From positions 1 to 44,260 of the forward strand of contig DULZ01000010.1 of NCBI GenBank assembly GCA_012840125.1: DNA of 44,260 nt. Direction: 5' to 3'. The notes beneath the pieces are model-generated. The model searched no databases and had not been told where the DNA came from. It saw only the letters and a list, made by a program, of their open reading frames with translations. Position 1 is the stretch's first letter. Each line of letters begins with the position of its first letter. Below are positions 9,410 to 31,869 of the stretch, one piece after another. Made by a program: the position numbers and the translations under genes. The DNA is from Clostridia bacterium (GTDB lineage: Bacteria > Bacillota > DULZ01).

Positions 9410-9447
9410 TTAGACTGTATGCAAAGGAACAGCCTGTCAACAAGCTG

Positions 9448-9477
9448 CAGGGACCCGGAAAAGCGCCCGGGTCCCTG
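9448..9477. repeat. Second copy of the GGGACCCGG hairpin
   Basis: CAGGGACCCGG/CCGGGTCCCTG arms repeat the stem of the hairpin at 9383-9409 about 60 bases away. It is placed directly after the stop of the minus-strand amidohydrolase, so it may be the terminator of that operon, though no T-run follows on the minus strand. Confidence 0.5.
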
Positions 9478-9480
9478 TCC

Positions 9481-11279: not shown

Positions 11280-11300
11280 GATGTTTCCCTCCTCCAATGT

Positions 11301-11882: not shown

Positions 11883-11920
11883 GGGCAATCCTTCCAAAAT
11901 ATGAAATGTGGGGCAATAAT

Positions 11921-11949
11921 AGCATAATCCAAGGAAAGCCGTTTGGCAA
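11921..11949 (-). promoter_or_regulatory. Promoter of the DedA/amidohydrolase operon
   Basis: TTGCCA (11944-11949) - 17 bases - TATGCT (11921-11926) on the minus strand, about 40 bases ahead of the DedA start. Confidence 0.5.
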
Positions 11950-12102
11950 CTACCGGCATGATCGGATTCGTTATCCGGGCAGGCCGTGGGGGACGGGGGC
12001 CGGAGGCCGGGCCTGTCTAGCAGAAATTGGCTGGCGAATGGCGGAGGAAAACCGGCGATATGAGTCGAACTATTCAATCAATTCTGTATAAGGGGGAAAG
12101 AA

Positions 12103-13704: not shown

Positions 13705-14369
13705 TCGGTATCGTGATCGTCGAAGATGACCCAATGGTGTTAGAAATAAACCAGCAATACATTGAAGCAGTGGGAGGCTTTCGCATTCTCGGCACGGCGA
13801 CTCATGCCGCCGAGGGATTGGAATTGGTGCGCCAGCTGCGCCCGCAGCTGCTGCTCTTGGATGTGTTTTTGCCGGATCAGAAAGGAATTGAAGTGCTGCA
13901 GGAAATCAGGCGTTTGGAGCTGCCCACCGATGTGCTGATGGTGACGGCCGCCCGGGATGTGGAGACCATCCAGCTGGGTTTTCGCTACGGGGTGGTGGAT
14001 TATATTATCAAGCCCTTCCGTTTTGAAAGGATTAAAAGCTCCCTGGAATCTTACCGGGAGATGTACTACCGCCTGCAGGAAAAAGAGGCATTGAACCAAG
14101 CGGACATTGATAACATGGGACTGGGCAAAGTTAAGGCGGTGAAGGAGGAACTGCCGAAAGGCCTGACGGAAACCACTTTGAAACAGGTTTTGCTCCTGCT
14201 GGTGAAAGGGAGAAAGAGTTATTCCGCCGAGGAAGTGGCCGCTGAAGTCGGTTTGTCCAGGGTGACGGCCCGCCGCTATCTGGAATACCTGGAGAAGACG
14301 GGCCGAGCGGAACTGGAACTGCAGTACGGCTCCGTCGGCAGGCCGGTCAACCGGTATCGCCTCAAATAG
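13701..14369 (+). CDS. Response regulator, CitB/DcuR family
   Basis: 222 aa. The receiver domain occupies about 1-120, with the acidic pair EDD at 8-10, phosphorylation site Asp54 (LLLLDVFLPD), and a Lys in IIKPF. The C-terminal part (about 150-222) contains a helix-turn-helix (YSAEEVAAEVGLSRVTARRY), as in DcuR/CitB regulators. It is translationally coupled to the kinase (ATGA overlap). Likely targets are transport genes for the sensed acid, possibly the TRAP operon at 23056-26008. Confidence 0.92.
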   Translation: MIGIVIVEDDPMVLEINQQYIEAVGGFRILGTATHAAEGLELVRQLRPQLLLLDVFLPDQKGIEVLQEIRRLELPTDVLMVTAARDVETIQLGFRYGVVDYIIKPFRFERIKSSLESYREMYYRLQEKEALNQADIDNMGLGKVKAVKEELPKGLTETTLKQVLLLLVKGRKSYSAEEVAAEVGLSRVTARRYLEYLEKTGRAELELQYGSVGRPVNRYRLK

Positions 14370-14385
14370 CGAAAAGGTGTTAGCC

Positions 14386-15417
14386 ATGATGAACAAGGTG
14401 TACGTCTTTTGCCTGATTTGCCTTTTCTTACTGCCGTTGGTGTCCGGATGCCAGACGCGGGCCATGGACTTGGAGCAGGTAAGTTACGAGGAAAGAATAG
14501 TGATCAAGTTCTCCCATGTGGTAGCGGAATCCTCACCGAAAGGGCAAGCGGCCAATCGTTTCGCCGCTTTGGTGAAGGAAAGGACCGGCGGGAGGGTGGA
14601 AGTGCAGGTTTATCCCAATTCCGTCCTCTATAAGGATGGGGAAGAAATGGAAGCTCTAGTCAAGGGACAGGTGCAGATGATCGCCCCCGCCACGGCGAAA
14701 GTGGCGGAGAAGTTCCCCCTGTGGCAGATTTTTGACTTGCCTTTTCTCTTCCTGAATGAGGAAGAAGTACACCGGGTGATGGACGGGGAAGTGGGGCAGC
14801 AGTTGTTTCAAATGCTGGAACCTCACCGGATCAAAGCCATCGCCATGTGGGACAACGGGTTTAAACAGATTACCACCACCGTCCCATTGCGAAAACTGGA
14901 GGATTTTAGGGGCATCAAGTTCAGGGTGATGCCGGGCAGCCTGGTGCTGGAGCGGCAGTTCCGCTTGCTGGGCGCGGAACCGGTGCCCTATGCTTTCGAT
15001 GATGTTTATAAAGCCCTGGAAGAAGGAAGAGTCCAGGGAACGGAAAACTCCGCCTCCAACATCTATTCCAAGAAGTTCTATGAACTGCAGCCCTATCTTA
15101 CGATCAGCAATCACGGGTTCTTAGGCTACGTGGTTCTGGTGAACGGTCCTTTTTGGGATAACTTGCCGGAGGATATCAAGTTGATCATCGAGGAAACCAT
15201 GGAGGAGGTTACCCAGTGGCAGCGGGAGATGGCGGCGGAGCAAAATGCAGCTGACCTGGAAGCCATCCTGGGCACCGGCCGGGTGGAAGCCTGGTGGTTA
15301 ACCCCGGAGGAAAAAGAACGCTGGCGTCAAATGATGCAGCCTGTTTACCGGGATTTTGAAAACCTGGGCGGGGCTCAGTTGCTGGCCAGCGCCAGGCGAG
15401 ATCTGGGCCTCGATTGA
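14386..15417 (+). CDS. TRAP transporter solute-binding lipoprotein (DctP family), linked to the two-component system
   Basis: 343 aa. ATG 14386 lies about nine bases after AAAAGG. The N-terminus is a lipoprotein signal with lipobox LVSGC (Cys22). The body has DctP-family features: IKFSHVVAESSPKGQAANRF, a conserved basic stretch near KFRVMPGSLV that contains the carboxylate-binding Arg of the family, and FDDVYKALEEGRVQGTEN. No Q or M membrane genes follow; a terminator does. A binding protein encoded next to a Dcu-type sensor pair resembles Bacillus DctB, which assists signal perception, so a co-sensor role is plausible. Confidence 0.88.
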   Translation: MMNKVYVFCLICLFLLPLVSGCQTRAMDLEQVSYEERIVIKFSHVVAESSPKGQAANRFAALVKERTGGRVEVQVYPNSVLYKDGEEMEALVKGQVQMIAPATAKVAEKFPLWQIFDLPFLFLNEEEVHRVMDGEVGQQLFQMLEPHRIKAIAMWDNGFKQITTTVPLRKLEDFRGIKFRVMPGSLVLERQFRLLGAEPVPYAFDDVYKALEEGRVQGTENSASNIYSKKFYELQPYLTISNHGFLGYVVLVNGPFWDNLPEDIKLIIEETMEEVTQWQREMAAEQNAADLEAILGTGRVEAWWLTPEEKERWRQMMQPVYRDFENLGGAQLLASARRDLGLD

Positions 15418-15435
15418 TGGTTTAAGCAAGGGGTA

Positions 15436-15532
15436 GGCACAGGCCAGAGGCTGTGCCGTCTTCCCGGGCAGCCGGTATGGACCGGAGGCAGCTCAGGTAC
15501 GGCTCGCTCCGGTGATACCGGTTGCCTTTTTT
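15436..15532 (+). terminator. Compound terminator after the sensor/binding-protein operon
   Basis: A first hairpin GGCACAG/CTGTGCC (15436-15457) is followed by a longer structure (15467-15526) in which GGCA-CCGGTAT pairs with ATACCGG-TGCC and the inner ACCGGAG pairs with CTCCGGT. Six T residues follow directly (15527-15532), making this a strong intrinsic terminator. Confidence 0.85.
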
Positions 15533-15570
15533 GTTAGGTGATCCCGCCGGGCAGGCCGTGTCTTGTCACG

Positions 15571-15599
15571 TTGACTGTTAAAAGGAGGAGGAGTACAAT
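15571..15599 (+). promoter_or_regulatory. Promoter of the znu-AmmeMemoRadiSam operon
   Basis: TTGACT (15571-15576) - 17 bases - TACAAT (15594-15599). An inverted repeat ATACACC/GGTGTAT (15613-15633) lies just beyond the expected start point and could be an operator for a metal regulator or a leader hairpin; no recognised Zur box is visible. Confidence 0.65.
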
Positions 15600-15669
15600 C
15601 TACTTGAATGAAATACACCGGTCCCGGGTGTATCCGGGGTGCTATCCGGTAATACTGGAAGTAGACGCC

Positions 15670-16635
15670 ATGATCCGGTGGTGGTTTTCCATGCGCAAAG
15701 CGGTGATTGTTTTTTTATTGGCTATATGTCTGCTGGCCGGCGGTTGTGCTCCCGGCAGCGGTGAAATGAGTACCGGTCCGGGTGCCGGGACGGCAGCCAA
15801 GCCCCTGGTGGTGGCCACCATTTTTCCATTGGCTGACCTGGTCCGCCAGATCGGGGGAGACAAGGTGGAGGTGGCGGCTTTACTGCCGGCCGGTGCCAGT
15901 CCTCATACTTTTGAGCCTACGCCGAAGGAGATGAAGGCAGTGAGCCGGGCCAGTCTCTTCGTGTCCGTGGGGGCGGGTTTGGATGTCTGGGGACAAAAGC
16001 TCCTGGCCGCGGCGGGCACCGGTGTGCCGGCTTTGGCGGTTACGGACGGATTGAGATTGCTTCCTTTAGCGGGGCGGCATGACCGGCACGGTGAAGAACA
16101 CGAACATGCAGGAGAGGAGGGCGATCCCCACGTCTGGTTGGATCCGGTGCTGGTCCGGGATGAGATCGCGCCTAGGCTGGCCGGGGAAATGTCCCGCTTG
16201 TGGCCCGCCTGGGCTGACTATTTTCAGGAGAACCTGCATAAGCTGCAAGGGGAACTGAGCAAGTTGGATGAGGAGTTCCTGTCTTCGACGGCGGGGCCGG
16301 AAAAACCGAGGTTTATTTCCTTCCATGCCGCCTGGGGTTACCTGACCCGGCGTTACGGCTGGGAAGAAGTGGCCAGCGTCCTGGCATATCCGGGCCAGGA
16401 ACCCTCTGCCCGCTGGCTGAAAGAATTGACGGACCTGGCGGTACGGGAAGGGGTAAAAACCGTTATCATCGAGCCCCAGTTTAACCCGCAGCCGGCAGAG
16501 CTTTTGGCGGAGGAAATCGGCGGCCGGGTGTTAATCCTGGATCCCATCGGCGGGGAAGGAGTAGAGGGACGTGACAGTTACTTGGCGCTGATGCGGTACA
16601 ACCTGACCGTGATGAAGGAGGCGCTGGAATTCTAA
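15670..16635 (+). CDS. znuA: Zinc ABC transporter substrate-binding lipoprotein
   Basis: 321 aa. The start at ATG 15670 has GGAAG eight bases upstream; ATG 15691 is possible. A lipoprotein signal ends in LAGGC (Cys26). Cluster A-I metal-binding marks are GASPHTFEPTPKEM (first His), a short His/Glu-rich loop (HDRHGEEHEHAGEEGDPH) followed by VWLDP, FISFHAAWGYL and ILDPIGG, supplying the three His and one Asp/Glu ligand set. The His-rich loop favours zinc over manganese, so znuA is the best name. The stop overlaps the znuC start by one base. Confidence 0.9.
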   Translation: MIRWWFSMRKAVIVFLLAICLLAGGCAPGSGEMSTGPGAGTAAKPLVVATIFPLADLVRQIGGDKVEVAALLPAGASPHTFEPTPKEMKAVSRASLFVSVGAGLDVWGQKLLAAAGTGVPALAVTDGLRLLPLAGRHDRHGEEHEHAGEEGDPHVWLDPVLVRDEIAPRLAGEMSRLWPAWADYFQENLHKLQGELSKLDEEFLSSTAGPEKPRFISFHAAWGYLTRRYGWEEVASVLAYPGQEPSARWLKELTDLAVREGVKTVIIEPQFNPQPAELLAEEIGGRVLILDPIGGEGVEGRDSYLALMRYNLTVMKEALEF

Positions 16636-17342
16636 TGCTGGCTTTGGAGGTGGCGGGTCTAAAAGCCTGTATCGGTAATCACGTTATACTGGATCAAGTA
16701 AGCTTTCGGGTGCAAGAAGGAGAATTGGCGGCGCTGATTGGTGCCAACGGCGCCGGGAAGACTACCCTCCTGAAGGTGCTGACGGGGATCATGAAGCCGG
16801 TAGAAGGAATGGTCAAGGTTTTTGGGGAACCCCTCACCAAGGAAAACCGGAAACTCCTCAGCTACCTGCCGCAGAAGAGCCATTTCGACCCGCATTTTCC
16901 CCTGCGGGTTTTTGATGCCGTGCAGCTGGGCCGGACGGCCTGGTCCTTGTTCCGGCGTCCCCGCCGGGAGGACATGGAGCGGGTGGAGTGGTGCCTGGCC
17001 CAAGTCGGCCTGCTGGATCTGGCCCACCGGCCCATCGGGGAGCTGTCCGGGGGCCAGCAGCAGCTGGTTTTCCTGGCCAGGGCGCTGTTCGGCCGGCCCC
17101 GCTTGTTATTGTTGGATGAACCCACTACCGGTTTGGATGTCACGGCGCGGCAGCGTTTTTACCGGTTGTTAAAGGACTTAAAGCACCAACTGGGCTTGAC
17201 GGTATTAATCGTCACCCATGACCTGGAGGCCGTCGTAGCCCATGCCGACCGGGTGATCCTGCTGGAAAACCAAAAAGTAGCCTATGAAGGCAGCCCTAAC
17301 GCCGCGGTTAAGACTCAGGCTTTTCTCCGGGTGGTGGATTAA
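16635..17342 (+). CDS. znuC: Zinc ABC transporter ATP-binding protein
   Basis: 235 aa ATPase of the metal-type ABC importer. Walker A GANGAGKTT (about 36-44), Q-loop LPQKSH, signature ELSGGQQQLV, Walker B LLLLDEPTTGLD and switch THD are all present. Start ATG overlaps the znuA stop, and znuB follows after two bases. Confidence 0.92.
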   Translation: MLALEVAGLKACIGNHVILDQVSFRVQEGELAALIGANGAGKTTLLKVLTGIMKPVEGMVKVFGEPLTKENRKLLSYLPQKSHFDPHFPLRVFDAVQLGRTAWSLFRRPRREDMERVEWCLAQVGLLDLAHRPIGELSGGQQQLVFLARALFGRPRLLLLDEPTTGLDVTARQRFYRLLKDLKHQLGLTVLIVTHDLEAVVAHADRVILLENQKVAYEGSPNAAVKTQAFLRVVD

Positions 17343-17344
17343 AA

Positions 17345-18199
17345 GTGGAAATGTTGTCTTACGGTTTCATGCAAAAAGCCGTCCTGGCCAGTTTGGTGCT
17401 GAGCCTGGTGTCAGCGGTAGCCGGGTTTTTTGTGGTGCTGAAAAGATTGTCCTTTATCGGTGCCGGCATTTCCCATTCCGCTTTTGGCGGGGTGGCTTTC
17501 GGCTTGGTGCTGGGGCTAAATCCCCTGGGGACGGCAGGTGTCTTTGCCCTGGCGGTGGCCCTGTTCCTCGCCTGGATTAGCCGGCGGGGAGCCCTGCCTG
17601 AAGATACGGCCATCGGGATCTTTTTCAGCGGGGCCATGGCCATGGGTATTGCTTTCTTGAGCTTTGGCAAAGGCTATTACGGCGATGCCATGAGCTACCT
17701 TTTCGGAAACGTGCTGGCGGTGTCCACGGGGGATCTATGGTTGCTGGCCGGGGCGGGAGCTGTGGTGCTGGTCTTCCTGTTGGCGACCTTCAAGGCCCTG
17801 CTCTGCCTGTGCTTTGACGAGGAGCTGGCCTATGCCAGCAACTTGCCGGTGGGTATCCTCTATTACGGTTTGATGGTGGCCCTGGCTTTGACCGTCATGG
17901 TGGCGGTGAAGACCGTGGGGATTGTGCTGGCGTCCGCCTTGCTGGTAACGCCGGCGGCCACCGGTTACCAGCTGTCCAAAGACTACAAAGGGATGCTGCT
18001 CATCAGTGTGGCCAGCAGCCTGGTCTCTTCCTTTGCCGGCTTGTGGCTGTCTTACCAGTACGGCCTGGCCTCAGGCGCCGCCATTGTGCTTTGCGCCACC
18101 GGCATCTTCCTGCTGGCTTTTCTTTTTTCCCCGCGTAAAGCAGTCTTCTGGCGGCCCAAAGCCCGGGGGGACGTGGAAACAAAACAGGAAACGATGTGA
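17345..18199 (+). CDS. znuB: Zinc ABC transporter permease
   Basis: 284 aa with eight or so hydrophobic segments and the family marks LVLSLVSAVAGFFVVLKRLSF, ISHSAFGGVAFG and VGIVLASALLVTPAATGY (quoted as separate landmarks). The GTG at 17345 is used; ATG 17351 is possible. It completes the znuACB importer, and 29 bases separate it from the LigB/AMMECR1 fusion gene with no terminator between. Confidence 0.92.
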   Translation: MEMLSYGFMQKAVLASLVLSLVSAVAGFFVVLKRLSFIGAGISHSAFGGVAFGLVLGLNPLGTAGVFALAVALFLAWISRRGALPEDTAIGIFFSGAMAMGIAFLSFGKGYYGDAMSYLFGNVLAVSTGDLWLLAGAGAVVLVFLLATFKALLCLCFDEELAYASNLPVGILYYGLMVALALTVMVAVKTVGIVLASALLVTPAATGYQLSKDYKGMLLISVASSLVSSFAGLWLSYQYGLASGAAIVLCATGIFLLAFLFSPRKAVFWRPKARGDVETKQETM

Positions 18200-18228
18200 A
18201 TGATATGCTCAGGAAGGAGGTTTTTGCC

Positions 18229-19638
18229 GTGGGTGAACTGGTGATGGCGGCTATTGTACCTCACCCGCCGGTCATGGTGGAGGAAGTGGGACGGGGTGAA
18301 GAGTTGAGAGTGCAGGCAACCCGGGACAGCATGAAGACCTTGGCCGGGAACCTGGCACAGCTGCAGCCGGACACTCTGGTGGTCATTACGCCCCATGGAG
18401 CCCTGTTCTCCGACGCTATTACCATGCCGGCTCAAGATACCCTGGCGGGGGATTTGGGGCGGTTTCGCGCCCCTCAGGTCCGGCTGGAGTACGAAAGGGA
18501 CCGGGAACTGGCGGAGCTTCTTTATCGCTGCGCTTGGGAGCGGAACATACCCACCCATCATTTGGAGCCGGACCTGGCCCGAAGGTACGGGATCAGCCCC
18601 CAGCTGGATCACGGCATTGTGGCGCCGCTGTCTTTCTTCCGGCATTTGGAGCCGAAACCGCGGCTGCTGCAGGTGAACATGGGGCTCTTTGGCCGGGAAC
18701 GGCTGTACGAGTTTGGCATCGCCATGCAAGAGGCCATCAAGCAATCCTCCCGCCGGGTGGCGGTGATTGCCAGCAGCGACCTGTCCCACCGGGTGACGCC
18801 GGATGCGCCGGCAGGATACGATCCCCGTGGGCAGGAATTCGACCTGGCCCTCAAGGGGCTGCTGGAAGCCTTTGACGTGCCGGGTATTCTGGCGATACCT
18901 GAGGAACTACGGGAAGCGGCGGGAGAATGCGGTTACCGGGCCATTGTCATGGCTTTAGGTGCCCTGGACGGTTACGAAGTGGACCACCGGGTGCTCTCCT
19001 ACGAGGCTCCTTTTGGCGTGGGTTACCTGGTGGCGCGGTTTATACCCGGCTCCCCTGCTGAGAAGCGTAAGCTGCTGGACTGGCTCTTGCAGGAACGGCA
19101 GGCCAGGCGCGCCGCCAGAAAGCAGGCGGAATCGCCGGTGGTGCAGCTGGCGCGGCAAAGCCTGGAGCATTATTACGACACGGGTAAGATGCTCCGGGAT
19201 ACGGAGATTAAGCTGCCCCCTGATTTACCGCCCCGGGCCGGTGTCTTTGTTTCTTTGAAAAAGGACGGGCAGCTGCGGGGGTGTATCGGCACCACCGCCC
19301 TGACGACACCGAGTTTAAGAGACGAGATCATCGCCAACGCCCTGAAGGCGGCGTTGGAGGATCCCCGGTTTGAACCGGTGGAAAGGGATGAGCTGGATGA
19401 ACTGACCATTTCCGTGGACGTACTGGGGCAGCCGGAGCCGGTGGCCGGCCTGGCGGATTTGGACCCCCAGCAATACGGTGTCATCGTCAGCAGCGGCGGC
19501 AAGCGGGGGTTGTTACTGCCGGCCCTGGAAGGGGTCAATACCGCTGAGCAGCAGGTGGAGATTTGCCGGCGGAAAGCAGGTATTGGACCCCGGGAGCCGG
19601 TGAAACTGGAACGGTTTACGGTCACCCGTTTTACATAG
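18229..19638 (+). CDS. AmmeMemoRadiSam system: fused LigB/MEMO-like and AMMECR1 domain protein
   Basis: 469 aa. GTG 18229 is the start (AAGGAGG eight bases upstream). Residues 1-265 form a class III extradiol-dioxygenase-like domain related to MEMO, with candidate metal-binding His at PHPP (His12), TPHG (His56) and SSDLSH (His187). Residues about 295-469 are an AMMECR1 domain, including GCIGTT and the RFEPVERDELDELTISVDVL block. These families, with the radical SAM enzyme encoded next, form the conserved AmmeMemoRadiSam set of unknown biochemical function; here two of them are one polypeptide. Co-transcription with znuACB suggests a metal-related role, which is an inference. Confidence 0.88.
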   Translation: MGELVMAAIVPHPPVMVEEVGRGEELRVQATRDSMKTLAGNLAQLQPDTLVVITPHGALFSDAITMPAQDTLAGDLGRFRAPQVRLEYERDRELAELLYRCAWERNIPTHHLEPDLARRYGISPQLDHGIVAPLSFFRHLEPKPRLLQVNMGLFGRERLYEFGIAMQEAIKQSSRRVAVIASSDLSHRVTPDAPAGYDPRGQEFDLALKGLLEAFDVPGILAIPEELREAAGECGYRAIVMALGALDGYEVDHRVLSYEAPFGVGYLVARFIPGSPAEKRKLLDWLLQERQARRAARKQAESPVVQLARQSLEHYYDTGKMLRDTEIKLPPDLPPRAGVFVSLKKDGQLRGCIGTTALTTPSLRDEIIANALKAALEDPRFEPVERDELDELTISVDVLGQPEPVAGLADLDPQQYGVIVSSGGKRGLLLPALEGVNTAEQQVEICRRKAGIGPREPVKLERFTVTRFT

Positions 19639-19653
19639 AAAGGAAGGTCCGCC

Positions 19654-20658
19654 ATGCGTGAAGCTCTGTGGTACCGCTCCGTGGGAGACCAAAGAACGGT
19701 TTGCTCCCTGTGCCCCCATCACTGCCGGCTGGCCCCGGGGCAAGCGGGCCTGTGCCGGGTGCGGTACAACCGGAACGGGATGCTCTATACCCGCAATTAC
19801 GGCCTGTGTACCCAGCCGGTGCTGGATCCCATGGAGAAAAAACCTTTGTATCATTTTTATCCCGGCAGCTCCATTTTGTCCGTGGGAACCCTGGGCTGCA
19901 ATTTCCGGTGCAAGTTTTGTCAAAACTGGCAATTGGCCCACGGCGATCCGGTCCTGTTTCAGGTGAAGCCGGAAGAACTGGCGGAGCTGGCGGTGCGGGC
20001 CAAAGAACATGGTTGCGCCGGCATTGCCTACACTTATTCGGAACCCACCGTCTGGTATGAATTTGTGTTGGAAACTGCCAGGTTGATCCATGAGCAAGGT
20101 TTAAAGAATGTACTGGTGACCAACGGCTTTATGGCGGCGGAGCCTTTCGAGGAACTGCTCCCCTATATCGATGCCCTCAATATTGATGTCAAAGGGTTCA
20201 ACCGGGAATTCTATCAAAAGACGGTGGGTGGGGATTACCGGCCGGTACTCGACAGAGCCAAACAAGCTCACCGGGCGGGCAAACATGTGGAGATCACCAC
20301 CCTGCTGGTGCCGGGCTTGAACGACGGGGAAGAGGAAATTGAGGCGCTGGTGACCTGGTTGGCAACGGAGTTGGGGGCGGAGGTACCCCTGCACTTGTCC
20401 CGCTATGTACCTCATTACCGGTTGGAACTCCCGCCCACGCCTGGGGAAACCTTGCTCAAAGCGAAAGAAATTGCCGGGCAAAAACTCCACCATGTATACC
20501 TGGGCAACGCCCCTGAACTGGGAGGGTCTCCTACCTACTGTCCCCAGTGTCGCCGGCCCGTCATTGAAAGAAAGGGTTTTTGGGTCGTGAAGACCGTTCT
20601 TGAGAAAAATGCTTGCGGGTATTGTGGCTACACCCTGAATATCGTTGTTAAGTCTTGA
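19654..20658 (+). CDS. AmmeMemoRadiSam system radical SAM enzyme
   Basis: 334 aa. ATG 19654 follows AAGGAAGG by six bases. The radical SAM cluster motif is CNFRCKFC (Cys82, Cys86, Cys89). An N-terminal Cys-rich block (CSLCPHHC, then LCRVR) and a C-terminal pair of CxxC motifs (CPQC, CGYC) can bind additional iron-sulfur cluster or zinc. GIAYTYSEPTVWYEF and NVLVTNGFM are typical of the PflA-related branch. The substrate is unknown. The gene lies 15 bases after the fusion gene and 18 before the aminopeptidase gene. Confidence 0.92.
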   Translation: MREALWYRSVGDQRTVCSLCPHHCRLAPGQAGLCRVRYNRNGMLYTRNYGLCTQPVLDPMEKKPLYHFYPGSSILSVGTLGCNFRCKFCQNWQLAHGDPVLFQVKPEELAELAVRAKEHGCAGIAYTYSEPTVWYEFVLETARLIHEQGLKNVLVTNGFMAAEPFEELLPYIDALNIDVKGFNREFYQKTVGGDYRPVLDRAKQAHRAGKHVEITTLLVPGLNDGEEEIEALVTWLATELGAEVPLHLSRYVPHYRLELPPTPGETLLKAKEIAGQKLHHVYLGNAPELGGSPTYCPQCRRPVIERKGFWVVKTVLEKNACGYCGYTLNIVVKS

Positions 20659-20676
20659 ACACGGGAGGTTTTACAT

Positions 20677-21633
20677 TTGCACGGTTTAGCACAGGCAGCC
20701 AGGGTGGTGCTGGCTGATTGTTTAGGCGTCAAAGGAAACGAGAACGTATTGGTTGTCATCGATGAACCCCTGCGCGCCGTTGGGGAGGCCCTGTGGGCGC
20801 AAGCCCGGGAACTGGGGGCGGAAGCGGTCCTGATGGAGATGCTCCCCAGGGAGTCCAACGGCCAAGAACCGCCGGCCATGGTGGCCCAGGCGATGCTGGC
20901 GGCCGGTGCCGTGGTCCTGGCTACTTCCAAATCCCTCTCCCACACCAAAGCCAGGAAAGAAGCCAATAACCGCGGCGCCAGGGTGGCTTCCATGCCCGGC
21001 ATCACGGCCGAAGCCATGGCCCGGACCTTGCAAGGGGTAGATGAAGGGTTAAAAGCCAGGGCCCGGCGGTATGCCGCCCTGTTAAGGGACGCCAGGGAGG
21101 TGCGCCTTACCACCCCGGCCGGCACGGATTTAACTTTCTCCATTGAGGGACGGCCGGCGACAGCGGATGGAGGAGACTTGTCCTTTCCCGGGGCCTTCGG
21201 CAATTTGCCTGCCGGCGAAGCCTTTGTGGCGCCGGTGGAAGGCACCGCTGAGGGCAGGCTGGTTATAGACGGGTCCATGGCCGGGATTGGGTTGCTCACC
21301 CAGCCCATCCGCATCCAAGTGGAGCAGGGGACGGCGGTGCGCATCACCGGGGGGCAGGAAGCGGCCCGGCTGGAAGCACTGCTGGCTCCCCACGGGGAAA
21401 AGGCGAGGAATATTGCGGAACTGGGCATCGGCTTAAATGAGTTTGCCCGGATCACCGGCCTGGTGCTGGAGGACGAAAAAGCCATGGGTACGGTGCACAT
21501 TGCCCTGGGCGACAACAGCACCTTTGGGGGGCAGGTGGAAGTGCCCAGTCATTTGGACGGCGTCATCCTCAAACCCACCCTCTGGCTGGATGGGCAAAAG
21601 GTCATCGAAAACGGGAAACTCCTGGTGGAATAG
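20677..21633 (+). CDS. Aminopeptidase, M29-related (short form)
   Basis: 318 aa; TTG start eight bases after GGGAGG. The C-terminal half carries elements of the thermophilic M29 metallo-aminopeptidases: AELGIGLN (Glu ligand), LEDEKAMGTVHIALGDN (Glu, His and Asp) and STFGG. It is shorter than classical M29 enzymes of about 410 residues, consistent with the shorter COG2309 branch. It removes N-terminal residues from peptides if active. As the last gene of the znu/AmmeMemoRadiSam operon it adds another metal-dependent protein to that cluster. Confidence 0.8.
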   Translation: MHGLAQAARVVLADCLGVKGNENVLVVIDEPLRAVGEALWAQARELGAEAVLMEMLPRESNGQEPPAMVAQAMLAAGAVVLATSKSLSHTKARKEANNRGARVASMPGITAEAMARTLQGVDEGLKARARRYAALLRDAREVRLTTPAGTDLTFSIEGRPATADGGDLSFPGAFGNLPAGEAFVAPVEGTAEGRLVIDGSMAGIGLLTQPIRIQVEQGTAVRITGGQEAARLEALLAPHGEKARNIAELGIGLNEFARITGLVLEDEKAMGTVHIALGDNSTFGGQVEVPSHLDGVILKPTLWLDGQKVIENGKLLVE

Positions 21634-21637
21634 AGTG

Positions 21638-21666
21638 TTGTGTTCTGCTGTTTCCTTCGCTAAAAT
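21638..21666 (+). promoter_or_regulatory. Promoter of the 113-aa helical protein gene
   Basis: TTGTGT (21638-21643) - 17 bases - TAAAAT (21661-21666), 40 bases before the start codon, so this gene need not belong to the preceding operon. Confidence 0.6.
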
Positions 21667-21705
21667 AATGGGTGGTAAAGTATCAGGAGAAATGGAGGTT
21701 GCAAG

Positions 21706-22047
21706 TTGGAACAGCAGTTTGAGAAGCTCAAGGAGTACCTGAACATGGATACGGAGATTTCCTTTGAAGAGTTCGAATCTTACTATAATGACGTGATCGG
21801 GTACCTGCAGCAAAACTACCAGGAGATGGATCACGCCTCTTTAATCAAAGCCCGGTATATTACTTCCATCGTGGCGGCCAACGCCTTTGACCGGGCGCGC
21901 CGGAAAGGGCCCCAGCACAAGAAATACCGCAAGATGGCGGAAAAATGCGAGTTCTGGGCTGAGGCCATCAAGTATCGCTTGTTAAAAGAAGGGCTGACGG
22001 AAGCACAGCTGGAGGAAGCGGAGCAGAAATTAAGCGAAGCCGTATAA
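21706..22047 (+). CDS. Small helical hypothetical protein
   Basis: 113 aa, TTG start six bases after GGAGGT. The sequence is charged and predicted helical throughout, without signal peptide, membrane segment or Cys motif; it contains a basic stretch RARRKGPQHKKYRKM and a C-terminal acidic helix. No family is recognised. It has its own promoter and shares a terminator hairpin with the convergent DedA gene. Confidence 0.7.
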   Translation: MEQQFEKLKEYLNMDTEISFEEFESYYNDVIGYLQQNYQEMDHASLIKARYITSIVAANAFDRARRKGPQHKKYRKMAEKCEFWAEAIKYRLLKEGLTEAQLEEAEQKLSEAV

Positions 22048-22053
22048 AATGGA

Positions 22054-22086
22054 AAATCCTCCTGCCGGGAACGGCAAGGAGGATTT
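22054..22086. terminator. Terminator between convergent genes
   Basis: Fourteen-base arms AAATCCTCCTGCCG/CGGCAAGGAGGATTT (one bulge) with a GGAA-type loop. A T-rich tract follows on the minus strand (for the DedA gene); the plus side is weaker. Confidence 0.8.
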
Positions 22087-22087
22087 C

Positions 22088-22702
22088 CTATTGGTCTAGG
22101 AACCGCTTCTTAATGAATACGGCCACCACCGCCAGGGTCAGGATAACCAGCAGTACCAGGGCAACGGTGGAATAGGTGTCAAAATACCCGGCGATTTTTT
22201 CCCAGGCCTGGCCTGCGGCCCGGCCGAGATAAACCAGGACTAAGTTCCAAATAGAGGTACCTATTGTTGTCAAAACCAGGAAGAAGGTGAATTTCATCCG
22301 GGCCATCCCGGCCGGTACGGAAATCAAGCTGCGCACGATGGGAATAAAGCGGCAGAAAAAAACGGCGGCGCTGCCGTGCCGGTGAAACCATCTTTCCGCC
22401 AGACGCACGTCTTCCCTCTTCAGGCGCAGGGTTCTGCCGACGGGACCGCCAAACAGCGCTTCCAGGCGGTCTACATGGAGCAGGCGTCCCAAGCTGTAGA
22501 GGATAATAGCCCCGGCAACAGATCCCAGGGTAGCCGCCACGACAACCCCCCAGACCTTTAGAGGCGTCATGGTGGTCATAAAGCCGGCGAAGGTAAGGAT
22601 CACTTCCGACGGGATCGGCGGGAAAATGTTTTCCAGGGCGATCAAGAGGAATACGCCCAGGTAACCGTATTGACTGATGACTGCCAAAACTGTCTCCTGC
22701 AA
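22088..22702 (-). CDS. DedA-family membrane protein
   Basis: 204 aa, TTG start six bases after a G-run ribosome site. Family marks are LENIFPPIPSEVIL at the N-terminus and FFCRFIPIVRSLISVPAGMA with the conserved Arg residues, plus several hydrophobic segments and a basic C-terminus (KKRFLDQ). Members are membrane transporters or scramblase-like proteins affecting envelope lipid carriers. It belongs to a different DedA branch from the protein at 11301-11882, which lacks the ENxxPPxPSE form. Confidence 0.88.
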   Translation of the reverse strand: MQETVLAVISQYGYLGVFLLIALENIFPPIPSEVILTFAGFMTTMTPLKVWGVVVAATLGSVAGAIILYSLGRLLHVDRLEALFGGPVGRTLRLKREDVRLAERWFHRHGSAAVFFCRFIPIVRSLISVPAGMARMKFTFFLVLTTIGTSIWNLVLVYLGRAAGQAWEKIAGYFDTYSTVALVLLVILTLAVVAVFIKKRFLDQ

Positions 22703-23016: not shown

Positions 23017-23055
23017 ATTAAGTTCAGCTTGAGAGTGTTAAGGAGGCATGAATTG

Positions 23056-24123
23056 ATGGTAAAGAGAAGGTTGTACGGTAGGATGGCAGGTTTTTTATTG
23101 CTCATCGGTTTATTGGTACTGGCAGGAGTGGCGGCGGGCTGCTCCTCCGGGGGAGGACAGCAGGGCAGTGAGGTAGTGGAGCTGAAGCTGGCTCATTTCT
23201 TCCCCAGCGTGCACCCGGTAGAAACGGAACTGCTGCAGCCCTGGGCCAAGGCCATTGAAGAGGCCACCGGGGGACGGGTGCGGATCACCACTTATCCCGG
23301 GGAAACCCTGGCCAAAGCCACGGATATTTATGCCGGCGTGGTAGACGGTATTGCCGATATCGGTTTATCTTGCTTTTCCTATACCAGGGGACGGTTCCCG
23401 GTGTTGGAAGCTTTTGAATTGCCCGGAATCATCTACAAGAATTCCAAAGTAGCCAGCCAAGTGGCCTGGGAAGGGATTCAGGAACTGAACCCCCAGGAAG
23501 TGCAGGATACCAAACTGTTCATGGTGTTTGCCACCGGTTCCGGGGATTTGTTCACCAAGAAGCCGGTGCGGAATTTGGATGACCTGCAGGGCATGTTGAT
23601 TAGAGCCACCGGGCTGAGCGCCAAGACACTGCAGGCGTTAGGGGCGGTGCCGGAAGCCATGGCCCAGTCGGAAGCTTACGAGGCGTTGGCAAAAGGGGTT
23701 GTCCACGGTAACATGGGGCCCATGGAAATCCTGCAAGGATGGAAAATTGCTGAAGTGACCGATTATATTACGAAAACTCCTTTTCTTTACAATACTCTGT
23801 TCTTCATCACCATGAATTTAGACAAATGGAACTCCCTCCCGCAGGATGTGCAGGAAGCAATCCTGAAAGTGAATGAGGAGTATTTCAATAATGTCGCCGT
23901 AGGATTGTGGGATTGGCAAAACGAGCAAGCTTTTGAATACGCCGTCGGTGAGATGGGGATGGAAGTCATTGAGCTCAGTGCTGAGGAAACGGAGCGCTGG
24001 ATTAAACAAGTGGAAGGGATTCAGAACGAGTATCTGGCCAATACGCGGGAGCAGGGATTGCCGGGCGACAAAGCTTTAGAGCTAGTCAAGACTTTGGCAG
24101 CAAAATACAACCAGGAATTTTAA
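23056..24123 (+). CDS. dctP: TRAP transporter solute-binding lipoprotein (DctP family)
   Basis: 355 aa; ATG 23056 is nine bases after AAGGAGG. A lipoprotein signal ends with VAAGC (Cys29). DctP-family marks include LKLAHFFPSVHPVETELLQ, a DDLQGMLIRATGLSAKT segment with the ligand-binding Arg, and AKGVVHGNMGPMEIL. It captures the substrate, probably an organic acid, outside the membrane and delivers it to the Q and M subunits encoded next. It differs substantially from the orphan TRAP binding protein at 14386-15417. Confidence 0.92.
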   Translation: MVKRRLYGRMAGFLLLIGLLVLAGVAAGCSSGGGQQGSEVVELKLAHFFPSVHPVETELLQPWAKAIEEATGGRVRITTYPGETLAKATDIYAGVVDGIADIGLSCFSYTRGRFPVLEAFELPGIIYKNSKVASQVAWEGIQELNPQEVQDTKLFMVFATGSGDLFTKKPVRNLDDLQGMLIRATGLSAKTLQALGAVPEAMAQSEAYEALAKGVVHGNMGPMEILQGWKIAEVTDYITKTPFLYNTLFFITMNLDKWNSLPQDVQEAILKVNEEYFNNVAVGLWDWQNEQAFEYAVGEMGMEVIELSAEETERWIKQVEGIQNEYLANTREQGLPGDKALELVKTLAAKYNQEF

Positions 24124-24144
24124 GTTGCATAAGGTGGGACTGAT

Positions 24145-24705
24145 ATGAAACAAGCATCGGAAAGAACCGTTCGTTATGATACTTCCGTCAGTTGGCCAAA
24201 ATGGTTAACGGGAACTCCTTTGGCAAGCTTGGTCATGAGTACCAGCAAACTGCTGGACCGGATTGCCGGGCTGGCGGTCACCGCGGCCATGCTGCTGGTG
24301 GTGGCCAATGTGATCATGCGTACCTTGTTCAATAAGCCGATTCTAGGTGCTTTGGAGTACGTCAGCATGTTGTTTGCCGTGGCCGTTGGATTCTCCCTGG
24401 CCTTGTGTGCCGCCCACAACGGCCACATTGCCATTGACCTGTTGGTGGAACGGCTGCACCCAAGGGTCAGGTTACTGGTTGATGCTGTCATCCGCCTGGT
24501 GACCATCATCTTCTTGGGCGCCTGTACCTGGGGCCTGGTCCTGTATGCCAGGACCACCGCCGCCAGCGGTTTGGTTTCGCCTACCACCCAGACCCCTGTT
24601 CATCCCTTTATCGGTCTGGTGGCCTTGGGCTTCTTCCTTTTTTCCCTGGTGCAGGTGCTAAAGCTGGTGCAGGGCCTGGGCAAAGGCGGTCGTGGGGATG
24701 AGTGA
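24145..24705 (+). CDS. dctQ: TRAP transporter small permease subunit
   Basis: 186 aa with four hydrophobic segments, as in DctQ. A cytoplasmic N-terminal extension of about 30 residues precedes the first helix. The mark NVIMRTLFNKPILGALEY and the loop GHIAIDLLVERLHPRVR are typical. The gene is 21 bases after dctP and overlaps dctM by eight bases. Confidence 0.9.
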   Translation: MKQASERTVRYDTSVSWPKWLTGTPLASLVMSTSKLLDRIAGLAVTAAMLLVVANVIMRTLFNKPILGALEYVSMLFAVAVGFSLALCAAHNGHIAIDLLVERLHPRVRLLVDAVIRLVTIIFLGACTWGLVLYARTTAASGLVSPTTQTPVHPFIGLVALGFFLFSLVQVLKLVQGLGKGGRGDE

Positions 24706-26373: not shown

Positions 26374-26387
26374 GTGGTGATGTGATT

Positions 26388-27428
26388 ATGATTAAAGCGA
26401 GCATTATCGGCGCCACGGGCTATACCGGGGTGGAACTGGTCAGGATCCTGTCCTGCCATCCGGAAGTGCAGCTTACGGTGCTGACTTCCCAAAGCTACGT
26501 TGGGGAAAACATGGCTGACATCTATCCCAGCCTGAAGGGTAAAGTGGATTTAGCCTGCGCGGAGCAGGATATCCCGCAGGTCATCTCCGCCAGCGACGTG
26601 GTTTTTGTGGCTTTGCCCCATGGGCATTCAGTGCCGGTGGTGCAGGAAGCGGTCCGGCAGGGTAAGAAGGTAATTGATTTAGGGGCGGATTTCCGTTTCC
26701 GCCGGGCGGAGGTCTATGAACAGTGGTATCAAGTCCGGCACGAAGCACCGGAACTGGCGGCTGCTGCCGTCTACGGGCTGCCGGAACTATACCGCAGGGA
26801 CATCAAGGAAGCTGCCCTGGTAGCCAATCCGGGCTGTTACCCTACCTGCAGCATTTTAGCTCTGGCTCCGGCGCTGACAGGGGGATTCATTGAACCTGAA
26901 ACCATTATTATCGACGCTAAATCGGGCCTGTCCGGAGCGGGCCGGAAAGCCACTTTGACCACCCATTTTGGGGAGGTCAACGAGAATGTGAATCCTTATG
27001 GAGTGGCCGGCCACCGTCACACTCCGGAAATCGAGCAGGAATTGGCGGTCCTGGCCGGGGTTGATGTCCGGGTGTCCTTCACGCCCCATTTGATGCCTAT
27101 GACGCGGGGTATTCTGGCTACTTGTTACGCCGCCGTCAAACCCGGTGTCACGGAAAAAGAGGTGCGGGAGGCATATGAGCAGTTCTACGAGGGGGAAGCT
27201 TTTGTCCATGTGCTGCCGCCGGGGGCCTGGCCTCATACTAAATGGGTATACGGGTCCAACCGCTGCCTGGTGAACCTGACCGTAGACAAAAGGACTAATC
27301 GTTTAATCGCCTGCGCCGTGATCGATAACCTGGTCAAGGGTGCCTCCGGGCAAGCGGTGCAGAATATGAACTTGCTTTTTGGTTTACCTGAAACCATGGC
27401 CTTGGACTTCAATGGAATATATCCGTAA
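26388..27428 (+). CDS. argC: N-acetyl-gamma-glutamyl-phosphate reductase
   Basis: 346 aa. ATG 26388 follows GGTGGTG; the N-terminus MIKASIIGATGYTGVEL is the NADP-binding start typical of ArgC. The catalytic Cys150 is in NPGCYPT. The enzyme reduces N-acetylglutamyl phosphate to the semialdehyde, third step of the arginine pathway. First gene of argCJBDF. Confidence 0.96.
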   Translation: MIKASIIGATGYTGVELVRILSCHPEVQLTVLTSQSYVGENMADIYPSLKGKVDLACAEQDIPQVISASDVVFVALPHGHSVPVVQEAVRQGKKVIDLGADFRFRRAEVYEQWYQVRHEAPELAAAAVYGLPELYRRDIKEAALVANPGCYPTCSILALAPALTGGFIEPETIIIDAKSGLSGAGRKATLTTHFGEVNENVNPYGVAGHRHTPEIEQELAVLAGVDVRVSFTPHLMPMTRGILATCYAAVKPGVTEKEVREAYEQFYEGEAFVHVLPPGAWPHTKWVYGSNRCLVNLTVDKRTNRLIACAVIDNLVKGASGQAVQNMNLLFGLPETMALDFNGIYP

Positions 27429-27445
27429 AGGTGGGAATAGGTAAA

Positions 27446-28675
27446 ATGTGCGCTTGGCAAGTGATTGAAGGAGGGGTGACGGAACCCCAAGGCTTTACCG
27501 CTGCGGGCGTCAGTGCCGGTATTAAGGAAAGCGGCAAGAAAGACATGGCTTTGATCTATGCCGGAAAACCCTGCAGCGCCGCCGGGGTGTTCACCCAAAA
27601 CCTGGTGAAAGCAGCGCCGGTGCTGCTGGATATGGAACACTTGAAGAAAACCAAGGGGATAGCCCAGGCGATCATTGTCAACAGCGGCAATGCCAATGCC
27701 TGCACCGGGGGACAAGGCATGCAGGATGCCCGGGCCATGGCCCAGCTGACCGCGGCAAAGTTGGGGATTGAGCCGGAGACAGTGCTGGTGTCCTCCACCG
27801 GGGTCATCGGACAGCTTCTGCCCATGGAGAAGGTCGAGGCGGGTGTTGCGCTGGCAGCGGCCTCCCTTTCCAAGGCCGGCAGCCGCGATGCGGCGGAGGC
27901 TATTATGACCACCGACACCAAGCCGAAGGAAATAGCCGTCAAATTTACCCTGCAGGGCAAGGAAGTGACCATCGGGGCGATGGCCAAAGGGGCCGGGATG
28001 ATTCATCCCAATATGGCTACCATGCTCTGCTTTATTACCACCGATGCGGTGATTGAACCGGCAGCTTTAAAGCAAGCCTTGCAAACTGCGGTCGATGCCA
28101 CCTTTAATATGCTGACGGTGGACGGGGATACCAGTACCAACGACACGGTGCTGATCCTGGCCAGCGGGCTGGCCGGCCACGAGGAATTGACGGAGGGCAG
28201 TGACGGCTACGCTGATTTTGTGGATGCCCTGACCTATGCTTGCGGGGATTTGGCCAGGAAGATTGCCGCCGACGGGGAGGGAGCGACGAAGCTGCTTGAG
28301 GTGGAAGTCAGGAACGCTCCCAGCCTCCGGGACGCCCGGCTGGTGGCCAAGGCAGTGGCTTCTTCCAATCTAGTGAAGACCGCCCTTTTTGGGGAAGATG
28401 CCAACTGGGGCCGGATTCTCTGTGCTGCCGGCTATTCGGGGGCCCAGTTTGACCCGTATAAAGTGGATATCTATTTAAAGAGCCGGGCCGGACAACTGCA
28501 AACAGCGGCTCAGGGAGCAGGCATTCCCTTTGATGAGGAGCAGGCGGCTCTGATTCTCAAGGAAAAGGAAATCACCTTTATCCTGGACCTGCACGGGGGA
28601 GAGGCCGGAGCCACGGCTTATACCTGTGATTTCTCCTACGATTACGTGAGGATCAATGCGGATTACCGGACTTAA
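27446..28675 (+). CDS. argJ: Bifunctional ornithine acetyltransferase / N-acetylglutamate synthase
   Basis: 409 aa. ATG 27446 is chosen, with AAAGGTGGG about ten bases upstream. ArgJ recycles the acetyl group from N-acetylornithine to glutamate. The self-cleavage nucleophile is Thr192 in NMATML, preceded by KGAGMIHP; this splits the precursor into alpha and beta chains. With no argA or argE nearby, the acetyl-cycle pathway is implied. Gap to argC is 17 bases. Confidence 0.95.
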
Positions 28676-28683
28676 GGGAGGGA

Positions 28684-29550
28684 TTGGCGCTGGTACTGAC
28701 AGCTCTGGAAAAGGCGGGCATTTTGGTGGAAGCCCTGCCCTATATTAAGAAATTCCACGGGAAGACCATCGTCATCAAATACGGCGGCCATGCCATGTTG
28801 AACAATGAATTAAAAGAAGCGGTCATACAAGATGTAATTTTGATGAAGCTGGTAGGGATGCACCCCGTACTGGTGCACGGCGGGGGCCCGGAAATCAACG
28901 ACATGCTGAAGCGGCTGGGTATAAAATCTTCCTTTGTGCAGGGACTGCGGGTAACCGATGAGGAAACCATGGCCATTGTGGAGATGGTTCTCGTGGGCAA
29001 GGTCAACAAGGAGATTGTGGCCCTCATTAACCACCTGGGCGGTAAGGCCGTCGGTTTCAGCGGGCAGGACGGCAACCTCATTCAAGCCGTCAAGCGGAGC
29101 GGCGAAATAGACCTGGGCTATGTAGGCGATGTGAAGGCCATCAACCCGGAAGTTGTCCACACGGTGATTGCCCAGGGATACATCCCGGTCATCGCCCCCA
29201 CGGGTATCGGGGAGGACGGGAAACCCTATAACATCAACGCCGATTACGTGGCCGGTGAACTGGCCGCCGCTTTGAAGGCGGATAAACTGATCCTGCTTAC
29301 CGATGTGGAAGGCATCTTTGCCGATTACGAGGATAAGTCCACCCTGATTTCCTCCCTCCACATTGATGAAGTGGAAGAACTTATCACCCGGGGCATCATC
29401 GCCGGGGGCATGATCCCGAAAGTGGAGTGCTGCGTGAAAGCGCTGAAAGCGGGGGTGGCGAAAACCCACATTATTGACGGCCGTTTGCCCCATTCCATCC
29501 TGTTGGAGATCTTTACTGATGAGGGGATTGGCACGGAAGTGGTGCAATAA
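28684..29550 (+). CDS. argB: Acetylglutamate kinase
   Basis: 288 aa, amino acid kinase family; phosphorylates N-acetylglutamate. Marks are [11 protein letters not shown] (ATP site Lys), [11 protein letters not shown] and LLTDVEGIF. The TTG at 28684 is only a base from the GGGAGGG ribosome site; a CTG at 28690 has the better seven-base spacing and matches the usual N-terminal length, so the exact start is unsure. Eight bases after argJ. The 156 bases to argD hold no clear gene or signal. Confidence 0.94.
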
Positions 29551-29706
29551 AAGGTGGTTGTTGCCGGCGGTAGGTCCGGGAGCCTCAATGAAGAGCGGTT
29601 TGCCCCTATCTGGCGGCTGTCTTGGCCAGCCGGGAGAAGCGAAATGAAAACTGCCGTACCCGGCCACCAGCGCCGGACGACCGTTGACCGGTAATGGAGG
29701 TGTATC

Positions 29707-30909
29707 ATGAACAACGAGAGTATTATCGCAGCCGGAAAGCAATACGTGATGAACACATACGGGCGGCTGCCGTTAGCCCTGGTCAAGGGGGAAGGGGCCA
29801 GGGTTTGGGATGCGGACGGGAAGGTATATTTGGATTTTGTCTCCGGGTTGGCCGTCAACTCCCTGGGACATGGCCACCCGGCCCTGGTGCAAGCCATTCA
29901 GGAGCAGGCAGCCCAGCTTATTCACGTGTCTAATTTGTACTGGATTAAACCCCAGGTAGAGCTTGCTAAACTGCTGGTGGAAAACTCCTGCTTCGACAAA
30001 GTGTTTTTCTGCAACAGCGGGGCCGAAGCCAACGAAGGTGCCATAAAACTGGCCCGCAAGTATGCCAAAAAGCACCTGGGCGAAGACAAGTTTGAAATCA
30101 TCACCATGAAGAAGTCATTCCACGGCCGGACCCTGGCCACCTTGACGGCCACGGGCCAGGAAAAATTCCATCAAGGCTACAGCCCGCTGCCGCCTGGTTT
30201 TAAATATGTGCCCTTCAATGACCTGCAAGCTTTGGCGGAGGCCATAAGTCCCAACACCTGTGCCGTGATGCTGGAGCCCATTCAAGGGGAGGGCGGGGTC
30301 TACCCGGCGGAGCAGGAGTACTTGCAAGCCGTGCGCCGGTGGTGTGATGAGAAAGGATTGCTTCTGATTTTTGATGAAGTCCAGACCGGCGTGGGCAGGA
30401 GCGGTGAACTGTTTGCCTATCAGACCTACGGGGTAGAACCAGACATCATGACCCTGGCGAAGGGATTGGCCGGCGGTGTCCCCATCGGGGCTTTGCTGGC
30501 TAAGGAGCAAGTGGCGGCGGCTTTCCAGCCGGGAGATCATGCTTCCACCTTTGGCGGCAATCCCTTGGCGACGGCTTCCGGCGTGGCCGTCTTGAAGACA
30601 ATCCTGGCGGACGGCTTTTTGCCCGGCGTTAAAGAAATGAGCAGTTATTTTTTCAGTAAACTCAACGAACTGCAAACCAAATATCCCGTCGTGAAAGAAG
30701 TCCGGGGTAAGGGCCTGTTAATCGGGGTGGAGCTGCACATTCCCGCCGCCGGTGTAGTCAGCGCCTGCCGTGAAAAGGGGCTGCTGGTCAACGGCGTAGG
30801 CGAGAAAACCTTACGCTTCTTGCCGCCGCTCATTATAACCAAGGCGGATGTGGATGAGGCCGTCGCTATCCTGGATGAAGCCCTGTGCCAGGCATGCCTA
30901 GAAGATTAA
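29707..30909 (+). CDS. argD: Acetylornithine aminotransferase
   Basis: 400 aa, class III PLP aminotransferase converting N-acetylglutamate semialdehyde to N-acetylornithine. ATG follows GGAGGTG. Marks are NSGAEANEGAIKLARKY, FDEVQTGVGRSG and the PLP Lys252 in LAKGLAGG. Length and motif order are normal. Next is argF, 12 bases later. Confidence 0.95.
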   Translation: MNNESIIAAGKQYVMNTYGRLPLALVKGEGARVWDADGKVYLDFVSGLAVNSLGHGHPALVQAIQEQAAQLIHVSNLYWIKPQVELAKLLVENSCFDKVFFCNSGAEANEGAIKLARKYAKKHLGEDKFEIITMKKSFHGRTLATLTATGQEKFHQGYSPLPPGFKYVPFNDLQALAEAISPNTCAVMLEPIQGEGGVYPAEQEYLQAVRRWCDEKGLLLIFDEVQTGVGRSGELFAYQTYGVEPDIMTLAKGLAGGVPIGALLAKEQVAAAFQPGDHASTFGGNPLATASGVAVLKTILADGFLPGVKEMSSYFFSKLNELQTKYPVVKEVRGKGLLIGVELHIPAAGVVSACREKGLLVNGVGEKTLRFLPPLIITKADVDEAVAILDEALCQACLED

Positions 30910-30921
30910 GGAGGGATGACT

Positions 30922-31869
30922 ATGTTGGTGGAAATGAACAAGAAATTCAAGGGACGGGATTTCCTGTCGCTGAAGGATTACACACCGGAGGAAATCAATT
31001 ATCTCCTGGATGTGGCCGGGGACTTGAAATACAAGCAGAAAAACGGTATTCCCCACCGGTACCTGGCGGGAAAAACCCTGGGTATGATTTTCCAGAAAAA
31101 CTCCACCCGGACGAGGGTTTCTTTTGAAGTAGGGATGTACCAGTTGGGCGGCATGGCTCTGTTCCTTTCCGCCAATGACCTGCAGCTGGGCCGGGGGGAA
31201 ACCATCAAGGATACAGCCTTGACTCTGTCCCGCTACCTGGACGGCATCATGATCCGGACTTACAGCCATGACGAGGTGGTGGAACTGGCCCAGCATGCCA
31301 CCATCCCGGTCATTAACGGTTTGACGGACCTGCTGCACCCGTGTCAAGTCCTGGCGGATTTGATGACCATCCAGGAGCATAAGGGCCGTTTGGCCGGTTT
31401 GAAGATGACCTATATCGGCGACGGTAACAACATGGCCCATTCCCTCATGTACGGCGGGGCCAAGATGGGCATGCATGTGGTGATTGCTTGCCCGGCCGGT
31501 TACACACCCAAGGAGGAAATAGTCCAAGAAGCCACCCAGATAGCGGCCGCCACCGGCGGGAGTATCACCGTCACCCATGACATCCAAGGTGCGGCCCAAG
31601 ATGCGGACGTGTTCTACACCGACGTCTGGGCCAGTATGGGCCATGAAAAACAAGTAGAAGAGAGAAAAAGGGCCTTTGCTTCCTTTCAGGTGAACACCGA
31701 ATTGCTGAAACTGGCCAAACCCGATGTGATCGTGCTGCACTGCCTGCCGGCCCACCGCGGGGAAGAGATCACCGATGAAGTCATCGACGGGCCCCATTCC
31801 GTGGTCTTTGACGAAGCGGAAAACCGGCTCCATGCCCAGAAAGCCATCATGGCCCTGTTGATGGCCTAA
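30922..31869 (+). CDS. argF: Ornithine carbamoyltransferase
   Basis: 315 aa. ATG 30922 lies six bases after AAGGAGGG; the ATG at 30916 abuts it. Marks are FQKNSTRTRVSFE (carbamoyl phosphate site), HPCQVLADL and HCLPAHRGEEI. It forms citrulline from ornithine and carbamoyl phosphate. It closes the arginine operon; argG, argH and carAB are not in the window. Confidence 0.95.
   Translation: MLVEMNKKFKGRDFLSLKDYTPEEINYLLDVAGDLKYKQKNGIPHRYLAGKTLGMIFQKNSTRTRVSFEVGMYQLGGMALFLSANDLQLGRGETIKDTALTLSRYLDGIMIRTYSHDEVVELAQHATIPVINGLTDLLHPCQVLADLMTIQEHKGRLAGLKMTYIGDGNNMAHSLMYGGAKMGMHVVIACPAGYTPKEEIVQEATQIAAATGGSITVTHDIQGAAQDADVFYTDVWASMGHEKQVEERKRAFASFQVNTELLKLAKPDVIVLHCLPAHRGEEITDEVIDGPHSVVFDEAENRLHAQKAIMALLMA

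Follow-up and report, generated by a model that had tools for sequence, protein, structure and literature searches.

The stretch of DNA analysed here (the window) comprises 44,260 nucleotides of contig C10 (DULZ01000010.1) in a 2.47-Mb draft genome from a deep Bacillota-like lineage, and our subject is a run of seven genes on its + strand in which the subunits of a metal importer (znuA, znuC, znuB) precede a LigB-AMMECR1 fusion gene, the gene for the corresponding AmmeMemoRadiSam radical SAM enzyme, an M29-like gene and a small gene for a 113-amino-acid protein (Table 1). An initial sequence-only reading had taken the first six genes to be a single operon and, from the coupling of zinc uptake to the AmmeMemoRadiSam genes, had suggested a role for the latter in metal handling. 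Gene calls and family scans bore out the six genes, their order, their strand and their spacing; the end of the unit was misplaced, the seventh gene having been overlooked.

The genes are tightly packed: znuA and znuC overlap by 1 base, and the subsequent gaps are 2 bases (znuC/znuB), 29 bases (znuB/fusion), 15 bases (fusion/radical SAM) and 18 bases (radical SAM/M29-like), with the fusion gene starting at a GTG (18229) preceded by the Shine-Dalgarno sequence AAGGAGG. A scan of positions 15300-22300 gave one + strand sigma-70-like site, the promoter upstream of znuA, and no internal one, and comparison by eye located a similar site, TTGACT-18-TACAAT, at the corresponding place upstream of znuA in a relative, G002. 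The hairpin preceding the promoter is predicted to insulate it from the upstream DctP gene. Terminator-like sites occurred at chance level (9 found, 9.5 expected), in keeping with the earlier claim of no terminator within the run, and the order of the genes is retained in two genera. With a conserved promoter in front, none inside, a terminator-like hairpin on either flank and this shared order, the simplest reading is one transcription unit from about 15600 to about 22090, its genes probably co-transcribed.

Table 1. Features of the operon and its surroundings (window positions)
Feature	Position	Strand	Basis
Strong terminator-like hairpin and T-run, 3' of the upstream DctP gene	15466..15530	+	118-nt fold, -62.1 kcal/mol, z -5.3
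Promoter, TTGACT-17-TACAAT	15571..15599	+	sigma-70-like site scan
znuA-like lipoprotein substrate-binding protein, His-rich loop	15670 (or ATG 15691)..16635	+	PF01297, 246.7 bits
znuC-like ATPase	16635..17342	+	ABC_tran
znuB-like permease	17345..18199	+	PF00950, 252 bits
LigB-AMMECR1 fusion (LigB residues 7-268, AMMECR1 residues 305-468)	18229..19638	+	PF02900 and PF01871
AmmeMemoRadiSam radical SAM enzyme, CX3CX2C and eight further conserved Cys	19654..20658	+	TIGR04337, 325.4 bits (cut-off 220)
M29-like / NicX-like metalloenzyme, TTG start	20677..21633	+	PF02073, 50.3 bits (cut-off 27)
113-amino-acid helical-looking protein, same place in G002	21706..22047	+	gene call
Strong hairpin between convergent genes, probable unit end	22052..22092		-26.9 kcal/mol, z -4.4
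argC-argJ-argB-argD-argF, common downstream neighbour of AMMECR1/radical SAM in Bacillota	26382..31869	+	

Genome-neighbourhood survey

The relationship between the importer and its neighbours was examined in 141 AMMECR1 loci, nearly all from Bacillota, and on a tree of 129 of the proteins. Either znuA or znuB lay within 10 kb of AMMECR1 in three of the 141 loci, those of the window, G002 and G001, which belong to the same family and are the only sampled genomes of their class, and on the tree this adjacency amounts to one change. Of the loci, 97 had 3 kb or more of sequence on both sides, and among these znu was found in the window and G002 alone. Whole-genome coordinates of AMMECR1 and ABC-3 permease genes in 61 genomes brought the two together only in the window's genome (G000), G001 and G002, and in a survey of 399 genomes of the phylum the nearest other pair, judged by eye among the rows listed, was 16 kb apart, in G290. 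None of the five loci labelled Chloroflexota or Actinomycetota had znu near AMMECR1.

No metal-uptake family appeared among the other recurring neighbour clusters of 121 loci, or in Pfam scans of 80 unclustered immediate neighbours among the 25 families listed per scan (11 and 38 single-member families fell outside), and our literature search found no paper linking AMMECR1 with zinc uptake in an operon. By our own rough estimate, for a genome with about 1000 transcription units, one or so of them a znu operon, the chance of adjacency to a given locus is about 0.2% per independent arrangement, so that one case among about 100 arrangements is unsurprising. The proposed role in metal handling is therefore not supported, failing the neighbourhood check suggested with it at the outset: because the adjacency is confined to one small lineage, the neighbourhood says little about the function of the enzymes, and on this comparison of genomes it is a lineage-specific juxtaposition of parts that are ordinary and known.

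The usual neighbours of AMMECR1 are housekeeping genes, upstream cwlD, rplM-rpsI and truA, and downstream argCJBD or cdaA-ybbR-glmM. Among the 121 loci cwlD recurred in 49, rplM and rpsI in 28-29, argC in 29, argJ in 24, argB in 20 and argD in 18, and ecfA/T also recurred; these cluster names were assigned from the sequences of the clusters, and the arg genes of the window were confirmed separately. Since argCJBDF still lies downstream, the AMMECR1 locus of the window occupies its ancestral site. On the other side, synteny with G002 covers the genes at 6165-12077, and in G002 the counterpart of 11301-12077 directly adjoins znuA.

Other genes flank the operon as well. A DcuS/DcuR-like two-component system and a DctP gene lie upstream (12103-15417) and are absent from the corresponding place in G002, and a full tripartite ATP-independent periplasmic (TRAP) transporter set (DctP, DctQ-like and DctM) lies downstream (23029-26008).

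The metal importer

The co-occurrence of PF01297, PF00950 and an ABC ATPase in one operon identifies a metal ABC importer (cluster A-I), and apart from its permease the genome encodes no strong ABC-3 permease. The assignment to zinc in the sequence-only reading is likely correct, but it is not certified by any equivalog cut-off, the scores being 146 against 350 for AztC, 107 against 268 for ZnuA, 185 against 220 for AztA, 173 against 280 for AztB and 136 against 284 for ZnuB.

A perfect palindrome, ATACACC-N7-GGTGTAT (15613-15633), overlaps the expected transcript start. The genome contains no other good match to it, hits with two mismatches being at the level of the control pattern, and no counterpart was seen in G002; we consequently rejected it as a Zur operator. 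Unique as it is, it does not qualify as the conserved operator, common to other zinc genes, that is expected of a Zur-regulated operon. The genome has one Fur-family regulator gene.

The LigB-AMMECR1 protein and the radical SAM enzyme

The AMMECR1 domain of the fusion protein passes TIGR04335 (138.3 bits, cut-off 99), and the LRGCIG motif is invariant in 129 fusion proteins at the positions tested (R, G, C, I and G). The N-terminal domain had been described as LigB/MEMO, of which the first half stands: it is LigB-type (PF02900, 137.6 bits), passes TIGR04336 (Memo/LigB) marginally (29.1 bits, cut-off 26) and misses the cut-off of Memo proper (PF01875, 18.6 bits against 27). The AlphaFold model (predicted local distance difference test, pLDDT, 90) is nearer TK2203 and ring-cleaving dioxygenases (template modelling (TM) score by target 0.79-0.86) than MEMO1 (0.55), and on the PF01875 score and this fold ranking we rejected the designation as a MEMO domain.

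Residues H56, D184, H187 and C234 are invariant in the 129 aligned fusion proteins, H12 is present in every one that has the position, and position 233 is Glu in 123 and Gln in 6. Human MEMO1 binds iron and copper through H49, H81 and C244 (PMC11081632), and copper binding by MEMO1 is also stated in PMC9477392. Given that E233 aligns with a Glu of the dioxygenase 8iq8 while MEMO1 uses C244, the third metal ligand of the LigB domain may be either E233 or C234. A bona fide MEMO relative, L152, offered no bridge between the two, its match to MEMO1 ending before C244. L152 (1426-2307) and L153 (1300-2253) hold Memo-family proteins of two other Bacillota that are encoded apart from the AMMECR1 locus and are apparently exported, with hydrophobic or lipoprotein-like N-terminal signals.

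LigB and AMMECR1 are joined in one protein in 131 of the 141 loci, a proportion biased in both directions, since the fusion served as query for retrieving 80 loci and several more were chosen for seeming unfused; among 40 relatives from the phylum fetched regardless of fusion, 3 were unfused. The fusion is thus the usual form in Bacillota, partly by sampling, and not special to the window, and being ordinary it provides no special evidence here, contrary to the weight it had first been given. PF01871 was reported as a top marker of anaerobes, present in 3.4% of aerobes and 50.7% of anaerobes (PMC13386939), which argues against an oxygen-using reaction of the LigB domain in this protein.

The radical SAM gene lies 3' of AMMECR1 within 600 bases in 117 of the 127 loci with enough sequence. 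The CX3CX2C cysteines (C82, C86 and C89) are present in 105 of 105 relatives, and eight additional cysteines, four at each end of the protein, are conserved in nearly all of them and could bind further Fe-S clusters or zinc (as a zinc ribbon). The predicted metal sites of the fusion and radical SAM proteins are a property of the family, present without znu nearby, and do not point to zinc or tie the proteins to its uptake.

The M29-like protein and its small neighbour

In the M29-like protein, which matches PF02073, all five metal-ligand positions of M29 aminopeptidases are occupied, with E181, E248, H274 and H292 found in 12 of 12 sequences and D294 in 11, the other having a gap. The M29 ligand numbering, that of AmpT, was checked against alignments at E316 and H345. 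The nearest solved protein, ahead of the M29 aminopeptidases, is NicX (sequence 4e-20; fold TM score 0.84 by query). The earlier label of M29-like aminopeptidase is accordingly sound as to family and ligands and loose as to activity, and a metallo-peptidase is a possible function.

Of 117 testable loci, 11 have the gene just 3' of the one for the radical SAM enzyme, as does G001, on a short contig. On the tree this adjacency requires 6 changes, well below the shuffled mean of 11.6, at least 3 of them forced by well-supported branches. Close homologues (>390 bits) occur in 15 of the genomes of 61 relatives and adjoin the radical SAM gene in 9 of the 15, from 6 of 12 families, although the profile was built from radical SAM-linked copies and its score favours these. 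We tentatively propose, at somewhat less than even confidence, that in Bacillota the M29/NicX-like metalloenzyme is an optional fourth AmmeMemoRadiSam component, working on what the radical SAM and LigB-AMMECR1 proteins either produce or use as substrate. If so, the chemistry would be narrowed to reactions that can be assayed, peptide or amide hydrolysis or ring opening, and this recurrent partner would be a more testable handle on that chemistry than zinc.

The small seventh gene adjoins the M29-like gene in G002 too, and its product has no Pfam or NCBIfam match.

Interpretation

Gene content and order, promoter, terminators, phylogenetic distribution and active-site residues were read directly from the sequence, and the account that we consider likely is that they reflect one transcription unit in which the importer was placed upstream of AmmeMemoRadiSam genes that were already there, with no shared function implied. 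This would have happened once, in the ancestor of a small family, at a site usually holding cwlD or ribosomal genes, next to a vertically inherited pair (LigB-AMMECR1 and radical SAM) and its recurrent M29-like partner. As to transcription, the identity of the metal and all of the chemistry, we infer that ZnuA would capture metal outside the cell for import by ZnuB and ZnuC, and that, separately, the radical SAM enzyme would generate a 5'-deoxyadenosyl radical on a substrate held or processed by the LigB-AMMECR1 protein with its own metal centre, the M29-like enzyme performing a further metal-dependent step.

Several points weigh against this account. Both genera of the family, with fusion proteins 67-69% identical, have retained the arrangement, so that it has not been selected against; this conservation is hard to weigh, because the class is represented by three genomes only and the upstream genes are syntenic too. 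The sampling was almost wholly of Bacillota.

It is conceivable that there is lineage-specific coupling, in which the AmmeMemoRadiSam and M29-like proteins are induced together with zinc uptake, as in a Zur-type operon, because they need zinc, save it or replace it under scarcity. The shared promoter and tight spacing, the sole strong ABC-3 permease, the fully conserved M29-type metal site, the C-terminal four-Cys motif of the radical SAM protein, the order kept in two genera and the single Fur-family regulator are all consistent with such coupling; with the linkage restricted to one lineage, however, and no operator established by a palindrome that lacks both a second good copy and a counterpart in G002, we regard it as unlikely. 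Less probable still is a division of the run into at least two transcription units by a promoter or terminator ahead of the fusion gene, which would make the genes mere neighbours: close to the end of znuB there is a weak stem followed by a T-rich tail (18099-18116), but it falls within the coding region, terminator-like sites as a whole are at chance level, no internal + strand promoter-like site was found, and the 29-base gap contains a Shine-Dalgarno sequence in a junction (18165-18232) that is unstructured in folding. That the LigB/MEMO-like domain is a carrier or sensor of the imported ion is very improbable, since, while its H12, H56, H187 and invariant C234 beside E233 recall the metal-binding residues of human MEMO1, the latter bind iron and copper and not zinc (PMC11081632; for copper, also PMC9477392), all 129 aligned fusion proteins share the LigB residues in question with znu near only three surveyed loci, and the model resembles ring-cleaving dioxygenases and TK2203 more closely than MEMO1.

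A single arrival of the importer upstream of the AmmeMemoRadiSam genes thus remains our preferred account. AMMECR1 and MEMO proteins occur from prokaryotes, both bacterial and archaeal, up to humans, and are widespread and poorly understood. Closing a false zinc lead is worthwhile, and the M29/NicX-like partner is the lead to follow.

Comparison with known systems

The importer resembles the Znu and Azt zinc ABC importers in its three subunits, their A-C-B order and the His-rich loop of the binding protein, and differs in that its subunits fall below every zinc-specific equivalog cut-off. With respect to AmmeMemoRadiSam (TIGR04335/04336/04337), the window passes all three model cut-offs and has the radical SAM gene directly downstream of AMMECR1; it differs in the fusion of the A and B components (usual in Bacillota), in a B domain of LigB type, and in having znu upstream. 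Such sets are called "Memo-Ammecr1 systems" in PMC7159879, which cites Burroughs et al. 2019. The LigB domain shares with MEMO1 its fold class and, in positions plausible for ligands, two His and one Cys, whereas overall similarity is low, the LigB dioxygenases are nearer, and Glu233 stands beside Cys234.

The M29-like protein retains all the metal-ligand positions of the M29 aminopeptidases AmpT, AmpS and PepS, but is shorter (318 amino acids, compared to about 400-410), with a reduced N-terminal part, and is nearer to NicX in sequence and fold. NicX, a 2,5-dihydroxypyridine 5,6-dioxygenase (PDB 7cn3), binds Fe(II) through H265, S302, H318 and D320 (PMC7910607). As the best match in both sequence and fold it shares two of these ligands with the protein of the window, H318 and D320 corresponding to H292 and D294, while H265 and S302 are replaced by E248 and A276, so that the iron site of NicX is not conserved.

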